From a virus, in IMG/VR virus record IMGVR_UViG_3300010389_000004, positions 30,082 to 94,081 of that record: a DNA stretch of 64,000 bases, one strand, 5' to 3'. This document shows, piece by piece, positions 27,956-63,241 of the stretch; within the stretch, counting starts at the first letter, position 1, and the number at the start of each line of letters is the position of its first letter. The notes beneath the pieces are model-generated. The model worked only from the letters and a program-made list of their open reading frames with translations, was not told where the DNA came from and did not search any database. Made by a program: the position numbers and the translations under genes.

Positions 27956-29878
27956 TCAGCCCATCCTAGCGTTGATGTACGCTTGGTGGAAGTCGTTATC
28001 TGTCTCCTGACGGTTGTGCTCAACCTTGGCGTAGAGTGCTGGGTTTGAACGCACCATCTCTTCCAAAGCGGCTTGTGCGCCAAGACCTCGTGAGACGTTG
28101 AAGGACATTCTCTGTAGAACAGCCAAGCCATCCACAATTGAGTCCACACAGTCATCGTGAGCGCCTGAAGGGAAAGCACACAGCTCGTCGATCGCTGCGT
28201 CAACCGAGGGGTTACGCTGCCCTGGCAGCAGATTGAAGGGCGCTGCCCATTCCCCACGTTCGAAAATGGGAGAAACGCCGAGGGCTCGGGTGGTCTTTGA
28301 ATTGTTCCCGCGCTTCACCTCATACACCGGAGCGTGAAACCCAAGGCGGATGCTCAACTCATTGAGGGAATCAGCCAAGGCTTTTTGGAATGCCACGGAT
28401 TCCACGAGAAAACCCAGGTGATGGAACGCGAATGCTTCCTCAGCGACGCCCTTACCCACCGTACCTGATCCCCAATACGACGCGCCTACTCGATTCGAGT
28501 AATAGACGTAGTGCTTGAACATCAACATCATGATGCCAGCCATCGTGGTTCTGACGCGATCGACATCAAGCAGGTAGTATTTGCGTGTGCGGATTGAATA
28601 GCCCTGGGTGACGATAGCCGTGAAGTCATTATCGGCTTCTTCTGCACGCTTACCTCGTGAACCAGCAGGGTCCAATGAGGTAATGCAGATCAGGTCATCA
28701 GGCAGAACCTCCAGATTGAGGTTATTCATTTCCAGGTGGCGGAGTACGTTATCAGGTAATTCCTCACCCTTGCGCACCCAATACTTGATCCATGCTCGGT
28801 GGACGTATTTCGTTGCGTCATCCACAGGCTCCAGCATGAATTCCTTCTGGAAAGCCCGAGACCCCAAGTCTCTCAATTTCCAGGATAGGTACGGGAGGTA
28901 GTAGATCGGCTGATTGGTCGCTTGCCGGTAAGCGAGTTCGGATTCGGTGAGTGGGTTACGCCATTCATCAATTGGGCGTAGAGGATCCATCGCTCCGTAC
29001 TTTTGCTCCCACAACGGGTTTATGGGCAAGCCTTGCTCAGTGAATCCCTCACACGCTGGTTGCTTCGTCTTGATCCAGTTCGTTGTCCTGCGCTTGTCTT
29101 TCCATAAGCGCATAACCAGATCGTCCTCATGCACGGTCGTACCGATGACGATGATATTGCCCACGCCAAGAGAGGGCACGTTGGATAGCGCTCCCCAGAA
29201 CCAGTCCCATAACGACTCTCTAACCTTCACTGATTTGACGTGCTTGTCCTCAATGATGTCATCCAAGATGAGTAGGTCAGGACGCACGGATACCAGGTTG
29301 TTATAGATCGGCTGACCATACCGGTTCTTGGTGACGTAGCCTGAAGGCAAGTCATCCGGGAAGGACTCGTTGGCACCACGGAGCGCACCACCTGTTGAAG
29401 CTGAGAATACGGCTACCTGGTTGGTGGTTCTCAGGTACTTGTGACGCCAGCCTTGCTTCTTGGCTCCGCCAGTTTCGGTGTCGCCTACCAAGTCTCCGAA
29501 AGCCTTTCGGATTACCTCGTTCTGCTCAAGCTCCATTCGAATCTTGCCAAGGAAGCGCTCAGCGTTTCCTGACGTGCTGGAGATGACGCCGATGTACCGA
29601 CGCTTGCGGTAGCAGACGCACCAGAGCACATACGCAAAAGAGACCACGGTGGATTTGCCGTGATCTCGTGGAACGAGCTTCAGGAGGTGTTTGCCGTTCT
29701 TGAGTGTTTGTAGGTCTTGGATCAACCCCGAGTGAAAGGGTGCGAAGTGCTCTGAGAAGTGACCCGCCAGGAATACCCTACAGAACATCTTGAACGAGCC
29801 AGCACACAGCAAGGTCCACTCTTTGAGAGTGTACTTGGAGAAGTCAACCTTGACCGGATCGAGGACGGCTGGGGACAT
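27956..29878 (-). CDS. terL: Terminase large subunit
   Basis: 640 aa from the ATG at 29878; an ATG 16 codons earlier would fall inside a candidate promoter and has no ribosome site. ATPase: Walker A as PRDHGKS at 70-76 and Walker B as LLILDD at 202-207, then VIGTTVHEDD (coupling motif). Nuclease: SLDPAGS around 402, a second acidic cluster in the YYLLDVDR strand, and GAHDDCVDS near the end, matching the RNase H-like fold. It pumps DNA into proheads through the portal. No small subunit lies next to it; an HTH protein at 43.2 kb is a candidate. Confidence 0.93.
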   Translation of the reverse strand: MSPAVLDPVKVDFSKYTLKEWTLLCAGSFKMFCRVFLAGHFSEHFAPFHSGLIQDLQTLKNGKHLLKLVPRDHGKSTVVSFAYVLWCVCYRKRRYIGVISSTSGNAERFLGKIRMELEQNEVIRKAFGDLVGDTETGGAKKQGWRHKYLRTTNQVAVFSASTGGALRGANESFPDDLPSGYVTKNRYGQPIYNNLVSVRPDLLILDDIIEDKHVKSVKVRESLWDWFWGALSNVPSLGVGNIIVIGTTVHEDDLVMRLWKDKRRTTNWIKTKQPACEGFTEQGLPINPLWEQKYGAMDPLRPIDEWRNPLTESELAYRQATNQPIYYLPYLSWKLRDLGSRAFQKEFMLEPVDDATKYVHRAWIKYWVRKGEELPDNVLRHLEMNNLNLEVLPDDLICITSLDPAGSRGKRAEEADNDFTAIVTQGYSIRTRKYYLLDVDRVRTTMAGIMMLMFKHYVYYSNRVGASYWGSGTVGKGVAEEAFAFHHLGFLVESVAFQKALADSLNELSIRLGFHAPVYEVKRGNNSKTTRALGVSPIFERGEWAAPFNLLPGQRNPSVDAAIDELCAFPSGAHDDCVDSIVDGLAVLQRMSFNVSRGLGAQAALEEMVRSNPALYAKVEHNRQETDNDFHQAYINARMG

Positions 29879-29912
29879 ACTGCTTTTCTCTACGACGACA
29901 ACAGAGACCGAA

Positions 29913-29942
29913 TAGAGTGCCGTCATAGTGCGGGTGTGTCAA
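29913..29942 (-). promoter_or_regulatory. Candidate sigma70-type promoter for terL
   Basis: A perfect TTGACA lies at 29942-29937 on the minus strand, directly after a terminator-like hairpin. The -10 is poor (CACTCT or CTCTAT depending on spacing). The predicted start near 29905 would leave a short leader to the ATG at 29878. Only the -35 is convincing. Confidence 0.3.
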
Positions 29943-29944
29943 AT

Positions 29945-30236
29945 GAGAAAGCCCGGACCGGGCGAGGAGATCCGGGCTTCTCGATGCAGGCTCGCGCAGG
30001 GAAGAGCTGCAAGCCTGCTTGGTGCAGGAGACACGGGCAACGTCTCCTGTTTGGGTCTCCCCTCCCACCACAGATGGGAGACCCGTCTGCTCGTCTCGGG
30101 GCTAGGAGACGAGCAAGGTGAGGGTGGTAGAGTGTTGGGGGCTACCACCCTTGTGAGACTGCCTGCCTTTCCCCGTGCGGGCAGTCTCGTGTCGGCATTC
30201 TCCACAGGGATGCGAAACCTGCGTGCTCCTGCCGAC
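29945..30236. ncRNA. Tandem hairpin array, candidate structured RNA or DNA site
   Basis: The 572-base gap between terL and the next gene holds no convincing reading frame. It contains one imperfect hairpin (29945-29982, 12 paired bases) and six back-to-back perfect-stem hairpins: 30025-30049 (8 bp), 30053-30084 (9 bp), 30088-30115 (10 bp), 30121-30151 (10 bp), 30155-30188 (9 bp) and 30191-30236 (7 bp), with only 2-6 bases between them. Four stems carry GAGAC/GTCTC. Options are a large phage non-coding RNA, a packaging (pac/cos) site next to terL, or a transcription control region. Strand of action is unknown. Confidence 0.5.
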
Positions 30237-30410
30237 AAAATAAGGAGCGGGTGAGTGGCTGATGAGGTGCAGATGACCACCCACCCTGAACCCCGTGGTG
30301 ACTCCTCATGACGGTCTGTGTGTGCGTTCCACACCATGAGAAGTTGTACCTACACAGTACGAGGGTCTGAGGGTAAGTTACGTTTACTGAGTTCCTCATG
30401 CAATAGGAAA

Positions 30411-30433
30411 AGCCGTCCATGGGCAGGACGGCT
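30411..30433 (-). terminator. Intrinsic terminator ending the early operon
   Basis: Perfect 8-bp GC-rich arms (AGCCGTCC and complement), 7-base loop, then TTTTCC on the minus strand. Lies 18 bases past the stop of the 31-codon frame. Confidence 0.75.
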
Positions 30434-30450
30434 CTCACTACGGGCTGTAA

Positions 30451-30546
30451 CTACGAGTTGAGTGCAGCGATGACCTGGACAGCGTTGGGTGGAACACTCG
30501 GTCTTTCTCGCCCATTATCGTAGCCAGGCTCCTGAGGGTTGCTCAA
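30451..30546 (-). CDS. Possible 31-residue peptide, TTG start
   Basis: The TTG at 30546 overlaps the upstream stop as TTGA; 31 codons to a TAG at 30451, ending PSVPPNAVQVIAALNS. Polar, Pro-rich start and helical end. Support is the coupling and its place just before a terminator. No strong ribosome site, so tentative. Confidence 0.35.
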   Translation of the reverse strand: MSNPQEPGYDNGRERPSVPPNAVQVIAALNS

Positions 30547-32638: not shown

Positions 32639-32927
32639 TCTCTTTTCCTTCCTTGAGTTTGTGGTACAGGTCTTCGCCTTTTTGCGTTAGCTCCCAATGT
32701 TTGGACTCACCAGGTCTCATGGCGTTGACGTCCCAAACATACCCTAGCCTGTCCAGAGCATGACAATGCCTCGTGACAAGAGATCGTCGGGCGGAATCAG
32801 CACGCACCCCTGCGGGGCGCCCACCACGAGGCCACATTGCCCTAGCCAGGTCAATCGTGTATTTGCGCCCGTCGCCGATCGCCAATAGCAGCTTTTCTTT
32901 GAAGGGCGTGAGCGGAACGGTGGTCAT
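32625..32927 (-). CDS. Winged-helix-like DNA-binding protein candidate
   Basis: 100 aa. Helices around 10-30 (IDLARAMWP) and 45-62 (RRSLVTRHCHALDRLGYVW) followed by HWELTQKGEDLYHKL have the layout of a small winged-helix repressor (recognition helix, then wing, then C-terminal helix). No partner is visible. It overlaps both neighbours by a few bases. Confidence 0.55.
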   Translation of the reverse strand: MTTVPLTPFKEKLLLAIGDGRKYTIDLARAMWPRGGRPAGVRADSARRSLVTRHCHALDRLGYVWDVNAMRPGESKHWELTQKGEDLYHKLKEGKENESG

Positions 32928-33511
32928 TCGGCTTCCTCGTTTTCAAGATCCGCCTTCGCTTTGGTAATCAAGCGATCCATGTGCTTATCAAGCGTACCGT
33001 CGAATACCTTTTGGAAGGCAGCAACCCCTCTCGCAACTGCGTCAGAATCTTCCCCCGAAAGCTCCTGCACCCACTTCTTCAAGTCCTCGGCGAGAGGCTT
33101 GTTCTCCGTTAGACAGGCGTAGGCCAAAATAGCCGCCCGAGCCGCAGCGTCCTTCTCCGGCTTCAGTACAAAGTAGCTGTCTTCCGCCGGCGTGCCGTCT
33201 TGCTTGGTGATGTCGTACTTCTGGTAGAGGCCGCGAGGTGCTTGGTGAATCTCCAGTCGGTCTGGGTCATCGTCTTCAGCCCACCGCACGAACTCAACCA
33301 ATAGGCAGTTGCACTGGCAGTCCTCAAGCTCGGCCGCTTCTCTTTCCAAGCGGTCGCGCAAATGGTTCTCGACGAGCTTCGCGGTGTTGCTCCCACAGTA
33401 CGACGTCCCGTTACCCCAGAAAGCCAGCCGTTCTGGATCCGCGGCCATCCCCTCGGAGATGTCCATCTTCATGTTCAAGGACACCTTCACGATTGCTTTT
33501 CGGATCTTCAT
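32924..33511 (-). CDS. Unrecognised protein, 195 aa
   Basis: ATGA overlap with the downstream gene. N-terminal strand (IRKAIVKVSLNMKMD), a Cys pair (CQCNC near 75), then a helical half rich in Ala/Lys/Asp. Soluble. No family recognised. Confidence 0.72.
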   Translation of the reverse strand: MKIRKAIVKVSLNMKMDISEGMAADPERLAFWGNGTSYCGSNTAKLVENHLRDRLEREAAELEDCQCNCLLVEFVRWAEDDDPDRLEIHQAPRGLYQKYDITKQDGTPAEDSYFVLKPEKDAAARAAILAYACLTENKPLAEDLKKWVQELSGEDSDAVARGVAAFQKVFDGTLDKHMDRLITKAKADLENEEAE

Positions 33512-62201: not shown

Positions 62202-62431
62202 GACAGTTCCTCACGAAAATCCCCATTCAGCTTACAGACTCCGTGTCCGTAATTACCAGACTGCGCCAACGTGGAGGCATGGGTTATGCAGTCCATAGGC
62301 CGGTATCAAAACCTGATACCAGCCAAGCCTTATTGCAAGGCGAAGAAACCCGTCACGCGCCCAATTAGGAAAATCGGGATCGTGCGGGAGAACGCAGGCA
62401 GAGTAAAAACTAGCCTGCACTTGAAATTGTG

Positions 62432-62470
62432 AAAACTGGCGGCGGAAAAGGCAAAACTGGCGGCGGAAAA
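62432..62470. repeat. 18-base direct repeat, period 21
   Basis: AAAACTGGCGGCGGAAAA occurs twice with three bases between. Period 21 is two helical turns, so two protein copies could bind the same DNA face (iteron-like). Confidence 0.75.
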
Positions 62471-62521
62471 TTGCTGCAAAAGCAGCATGTCTGCTTCAAG
62501 AGCGGCTTACTTTAGAGACTC

Positions 62522-62577
62522 GTCTCTCTTATGACCCATCTCACACTTGAGACAAGGGGGTGGGTCATAAGAGAGAC
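62522..62577 (-). other. 17-bp perfect inverted repeat
   Basis: Arms GTCTCTCTTATGACCCA and exact complement around a 22-base loop. As RNA it forms a long hairpin just after the 16-codon gene; without a T-tract it may be a terminator aided by another factor, or a protein site. Confidence 0.65.
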
Positions 62578-62584
62578 ACCCAGG

Positions 62585-62635
62585 CTACTTCCCACGGCGC
62601 ATAATCGCGCCAACCGCCTTCTGCACCTTGTTCAT
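62585..62635 (-). CDS. 16-residue basic peptide
   Basis: ATG at 62635 overlaps the upstream stop as TAATG and has GGAGG 8 bases upstream; 16 codons to a TAG at 62585. The sequence MNKVQKAVGAIMRRGK is short, cationic and amphipathic. Coupling and ribosome site are the only support. Confidence 0.45.
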   Translation of the reverse strand: MNKVQKAVGAIMRRGK

Positions 62636-63171
62636 TATTGAATCCTCCAGACTCCCTCGCCCCGTATCAGTAGCTCACGGCGTAGCTTGCTGACGTGACG
62701 CTTGGCTTTTCGCGCTGATACTCTCACAAGGGATACGCCCCCTTGCCCTTGTCTTTCCGCTGCGTTGCATAGCTCGCAAGTATTCGCGTAGCCTGCTACT
62801 TCTGCCAGCCACGCTAGCGCCTTTTTACGGCGTTTTCTAGACGCGCTTCCTTCACTGGCGGGAAGGATCGTAACGGAAAAGGTATTTTCGTGAGAATCGC
62901 CCTCAAACCACAGCAGCGACTCGTATCGAAAGTGAACCATGTCCTTACTTGAGACAAGCGGAAAGCTAGTGTCCTCTTTCCCTTCCCAACGCACCGCCGT
63001 TTTTATACCTGTCTGGATTCTGCGCATACGATCGGCGCTCCAGCGGTACACGGGGCGGTTTATAAGTGCAGTAGTTTCCACTTGTACTACTCTCTGCAAG
63101 CGCGCTTTTCTACGCTTTGCGCTTGCACCTTTCCCGCGCGACTTGACAAAGTATCGGCCTTGAGCTTTCAC
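62635..63171 (-). CDS. Basic protein, 178 aa, GTG start
   Basis: GTG at 63171 with AAGGTG upstream. Highly basic, with Arg/Lys runs at both ends and at about 112-118 (SRKRRKK), and a Cys pair CELC near 132 that could bind a metal. Likely a nucleic-acid-binding protein made early. Its gene follows a 40-bp palindrome. Confidence 0.7.
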   Translation of the reverse strand: MKAQGRYFVKSRGKGASAKRRKARLQRVVQVETTALINRPVYRWSADRMRRIQTGIKTAVRWEGKEDTSFPLVSSKDMVHFRYESLLWFEGDSHENTFSVTILPASEGSASRKRRKKALAWLAEVAGYANTCELCNAAERQGQGGVSLVRVSARKAKRHVSKLRRELLIRGEGVWRIQ

Positions 63172-63192
63172 GGTTGCACCTTTCTTGTTTCA

Positions 63193-63232
63193 GGATTATG
63201 AGGCGAGTCTTATAAGACTCGCCTCATAATCC
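63193..63232. repeat. 40-bp perfect palindrome
   Basis: Two 20-base arms meet with no spacer (centre at 63212/63213). In RNA the minimal loop is TTATAA-like; no T-tract follows on the minus strand. It lies between the stop of the 165-residue gene and the GTG of the 178-residue gene. Confidence 0.8.
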
Positions 63233-63241
63233 CTGATCACC

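Follow-up and report, generated by a model that had tools for sequence, protein, structure and literature searches.

A hairpin array upstream of terL in a metagenomic phage record as a candidate lineage-specific structured RNA

The intergenic gap upstream of terL

The window analysed here, a stretch of 64,000 nt, comprises bases 30082-94081 of the IMG/VR virus record IMGVR_UViG_3300010389_000004 (94,081 bases). Crude gene calling, based on codon usage and with mechanically assigned gene starts, assigns 86 of 95 genes to the minus strand; a non-coding gap of 616 bp remains at 29927-30542. As an earlier note on this DNA had proposed, the gene adjoining the gap on its downstream side is terL, with which the late structural module begins. 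The region upstream of the gap (30543-63760) encodes an MT-A70/DNA methyltransferase, a MazG-like pyrophosphatase and kinase-like proteins; the gene at 32924-33511 (minus) specifies a product with a sulfatase-modifying-factor domain (phrog_9572, E 1.5e-15). An 18-bp hairpin with a 4-nt loop at 63193-63232, whose perfect stem is the longest in the record, lies in a separate non-coding gap (62202-63241).

Inside the 616-bp gap, between terL and a terminator-like hairpin (T0) that is the likely terminator of the upstream genes, lies an array of hairpins. Bases 30344-29945 of the minus strand, which is the coding strand of terL, are predicted to fold into about ten hairpins in series over some 400 bases (Table 1). 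The codon-usage scores are negative for every open reading frame crossing this region, including one of 132 amino acids at 30337-29939 (minus), which rules out a coding gene over the array in all frames and agrees with the earlier view that the array is non-coding. The array is unique within the 94-kb record and is its most structured spot in a sliding fold scan from which base composition, rather than dinucleotide composition, had been regressed out. Because the record is a linear metagenome contig, the hairpin-rich stretch may contain an assembly error.

Structure and strand of the array

Table 1. Features of the terL upstream gap, listed in the direction of minus-strand reading.
Feature	Positions	Strand	Remarks
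T0	30411-30433	minus	8-bp stem, 7-nt loop, then TTTTCC; absent from the strict terminator scan listing
AT-rich strip	30345-30410	minus	Precedes the array; 44% GC vs 62% in the array; candidate promoter region
Ha	30301-30344	minus	Nested inner hairpin; folds better on the minus strand
Hb	30245-30284	minus	Loop prefers translation starts
H1	30190-30237	minus	Closing stem of 8 bp; 32-nt loop with an inner helix
H2	30155-30188	minus	9 bp; includes GAGAC/GTCTC
H3	30121-30151	minus	Perfect 10-bp stem
H4	30088-30115	minus	Perfect 10-bp stem; includes GTCTC/GAGAC
H5	30053-30084	minus	Perfect 9-bp stem; includes GTCTC/GAGAC
H6	30025-30049	minus	Perfect 8-bp stem; includes GAGAC/GTCTC
H7	29983-30019	minus	CU-rich loop
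H8	29949-29979	minus	Perfect 9-bp stem; with TTTCTCATTT after it, terminator-like on the minus strand only
terL	27956-29926	minus	Large terminase subunit, Mu-type, phrog_38, E 1e-76; start codon uncertain

The earlier note had named six hairpins, H1 to H6, all of which are real and stand 1-5 bases apart. It had described a seventh, H8, as imperfect, when in fact its stem is perfect, and it had missed H7, Hb and Ha, so that the array is larger than was then stated. The 401 bases contain six perfect stems 8 bp or longer, whereas 3000 dinucleotide-shuffled versions of them averaged 0.1 such stems and had two at most. The fold z-scores of 29940-30245 are -7.1 on the minus strand and -6.3 on the plus strand, and that of 29930-30450 is -8.6 on the minus strand. 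The summed energies of the single hairpins, about -185 kcal/mol (minus) vs about -175 kcal/mol (plus), slightly favour the minus strand.

The pentamer pair GAGAC/GTCTC, reported previously as common to four stems, indeed forms both arms of H2, H4, H5 and H6. There are 8 occurrences in the array, whereas 0.88 would be expected in 401 bases; this test, like those for anti-Shine-Dalgarno motifs below, was chosen post hoc after the sequence had been inspected. Across the whole record, counts of 7-9 are reached in only 7 overlapping counting intervals, which we take to be those covering the array; all others contain 5 or fewer. The registers of the motif differ between the stems, and the four hairpins are therefore not simple copies of one unit. 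Short stretches do repeat between hairpins of the array.

The tail after H8 (UUUCUCAUUU) yields a site that is terminator-like when the minus strand is read but not on the plus strand, and at the other end of the array the composition of the AT-rich strip is as expected for a promoter strip. The two are arranged as in a short transcription unit; no sigma-70 promoter or consensus, however, was recognised ahead of the array, the strip included, which counts against such a unit. Further observations count against a minus-strand RNA, namely that the U-tract following the H8 stem is interrupted, that the plus strand folds nearly as well as the minus strand and that no homologue of the array was found.

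The terL junction in related phages

Relatives were sought with a loose degenerate pattern around Walker B, which identified four virus records (G001 to G004) whose TerL is 43-53% identical and whose structural module is syntenic. G003 and G004 probably derive from one phage, as their identity values agree exactly wherever the two records overlap; the number of independent relatives would then be three. The same pattern found no relative in bacterial genomes. Searches with TerL as a single query, a polymerase query, a TerL alignment and a Walker A pattern gave no relative or only distant TerLs below ~32% identity; a polymerase-motif scan found no match, and the major capsid protein had no tblastn match in phage records.

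None of the four relatives carries the hairpin array before terL. Each has instead one terminator-like hairpin directly before the gene, a feature that they thus have in common with the present phage, unlike the array. In G001 this hairpin is preceded by TTGACA-18-TAGAAT, an 11/12 match to a sigma-70 promoter, giving a leader of ~120 nt; in G003 and G004 a weaker promoter candidate lies just after the hairpin. Elsewhere in the relatives only smaller hairpin clusters were found: several strong hairpins in succession at G002:25901-26400 (L132:5900-6400), among them TTACTTATGCCCCTTGAACGTTCAAGGGGCATAAGTAA, and two strong adjacent hairpins just past the homologue of the record's left-end gene in G003 and G004 (L136:8880-9080, L142:15840-16040). 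The genes directly upstream of terL in G001 (L123:3280-4350, minus) and G002 (L124:2938-3660, minus) have a C-terminal part in common (~39% identical), and by position they could encode a small terminase subunit; this part has no clear homologue in the window's record.

Because four syntenic relatives do without it before terL, the array looks lineage-specific, and it lies exactly where synteny ends. These features, together with the short stretches that recur between its hairpins and the unrelated intergenic hairpin clusters that the relatives carry elsewhere, are what would be expected of a functionless by-product of local duplication and inversion at the boundary between a variable region and the conserved late module. 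We consider such an origin unlikely, since about ten similarly sized hairpins with hardly a mismatch suggest that the array is maintained or arose very recently, and phage genomes tend to shed idle DNA.

The same comparison bears on the possibility that the array acts as DNA, either as a packaging (pac) site recognised by terminase, as the earlier note had also suggested, or as some other palindromic protein-binding array. A DNA element would account for the position directly upstream of terL, for the almost equal folding of both strands and for the eightfold recurrence of GAGAC/GTCTC. The differing register of the motif in each stem speaks against it, however, as does the terminator-like end, which is confined to one strand and points to RNA. 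A pac site would be expected to be conserved with its terminase and to lie at the packaged end, and the absence of the array before terL in the four relatives disfavours a packaging function shared with that enzyme. Overall, a DNA element appears quite improbable, while the earlier note's other suggestions, a structured RNA or a regulatory relay, are compatible with the non-coding sequence, the minus-only terminator-like end and the slight preference for the minus strand.

The array as a candidate RNA

No Rfam family reaches its gathering score in the array, neither tRNA nor tmRNA was found in it, and it has no DNA match among phage or plasmid records; within the scope of these searches, the earlier description of the element as undescribed thus holds. 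The best relaxed Rfam match is to ar14 (RF02344), at 30056-29944 on the minus strand, with 32.5 bits against the 58.8 required and an E of 0.00029. The best E values in two equally long, structure-rich controls were 0.0034 and 0.001, so that the match is barely above such controls and little better than what structure by itself yields. No relaxed ar14 match was obtained from the terL leaders of G001 and G004. An ar14 RNA has three hairpins, whose stems are hypervariable, and presents unpaired anti-Shine-Dalgarno motifs in all loops (PMC7143759). This alphaproteobacterial family, which includes NfeR1/Smr14C2 of Sinorhizobium meliloti, resembles the array in its serial hairpins with variable stems and its final terminator hairpin, and two of the array's loops are CU-rich. 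H6 to H8 fit the three-hairpin plan, yet they belong to a string of about ten; CU-rich motifs occur only in the loop of H7 and partly in those of H8 and H4, rather than in all loops.

The resemblance raises the question of whether CU-rich loops of the array block the translation of phage or host mRNAs by pairing with their ribosome-binding sites, in the manner of ar14/NfeR1. Apart from the ar14 match at the 3' end of the array, the hexamer UCUCCU is present three times against 0.10 expected. It is the complement of AGGAGA, the strongest Shine-Dalgarno hexamer of this phage (21 occurrences vs 0.4 in controls at the gene starts of the window, with AGGAGG rare at 2) and the first or among the first in G001-G004 as well. 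The three copies are not independent of the GAGAC/GTCTC recurrence, and one is fully paired, one mostly paired and only one mostly unpaired. A preference for translation starts is seen in two loops, those of H7 and Hb, whereas the other 8 of the 10 loops have no such preference or the opposite one, and a general presentation of anti-Shine-Dalgarno motifs by the loops is therefore unsupported. With the ar14 score well below its cut-off as well, an anti-Shine-Dalgarno riboregulator remains a minority reading, and a very doubtful one. A CsrA-type decoy was rejected upon inspection, GGA being found only in the H1 loop, as was antisense pairing with phage transcripts, for which the longest matches (12 nt) were judged by eye to be no better than expected.

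The array also invites comparison with GOLLD and ROOL, non-coding RNAs of phages and prophages that are large, structured and of unknown function (PMC12286853). It is likewise a large candidate non-coding RNA of a phage. Those RNAs are elaborate, pseudoknotted and covarying and are often found near tRNAs, whereas the array is a plain string of hairpins without a tRNA, and the GOLLD and ROOL covariance models gave no match to it at gathering score or under relaxed conditions.

The late leaders of phages offer a parallel in position. The lambda pR'-tR' region and its 6S RNA constitute a late leader with a terminator before the late genes, and the put sites of HK022 are neighbouring hairpins within the nascent RNA. 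The array resembles the former as a non-coding stretch with a terminator-like hairpin directly before late genes, and the latter in having its hairpins side by side. It differs from both in its many more hairpins and in that neither a promoter nor an antiterminator has been identified for it; a strong sigma-70 promoter is present at this place in the relative G001.

We give about an even chance to the proposal that the array is a lineage-specific structured non-coding RNA of the minus strand, made from its own unit of ~400 nt, that also serves as a leader of the late genes. The fold z-scores and the excess of perfect stems over shuffled sequence argue for a minus-strand RNA, as do the negative codon scores, the terminator-like end on that strand only, the AT-rich strip and the lower minus-strand energies. 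A role as late leader is suggested by the position of the array directly upstream of the syntenic late module, by the terminator-like hairpin before terL in all relatives, and by the promoter and short leader that G001 has at that place.

From these computed features we infer that the array is transcribed and folds in the cell, with a start site, a function and an effect on late expression as follows. Transcription would start in the AT-rich strip, about ten independent hairpins would form in series along the RNA, and most transcripts would end at the terminator-like hairpin 29979-29949. Transcription past the H8 terminator would give terL and late transcripts with hairpins at their 5' ends, since the array would lead the late (structural) genes as well. 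The RNA may act in cis on late expression, through attenuation, pausing or mRNA protection, in trans as a stable RNA, or in both ways. More tentatively, and with a distinctly smaller chance of being right, the array could represent a new class of phage RNA, in which about ten independent hairpins form a late-operon leader that serves as a multivalent binding platform or a relay at the early-late switch.

If it is transcribed, the array would place a compact, multivalent RNA at the switch to the late genes, where the relatives show a single terminator-like hairpin, and it would indicate that a single phage group can acquire such elements. The array marks a group of phages, here represented by metagenome records only, that share a syntenic structural module and allow the junction before terL to be compared between lineages.
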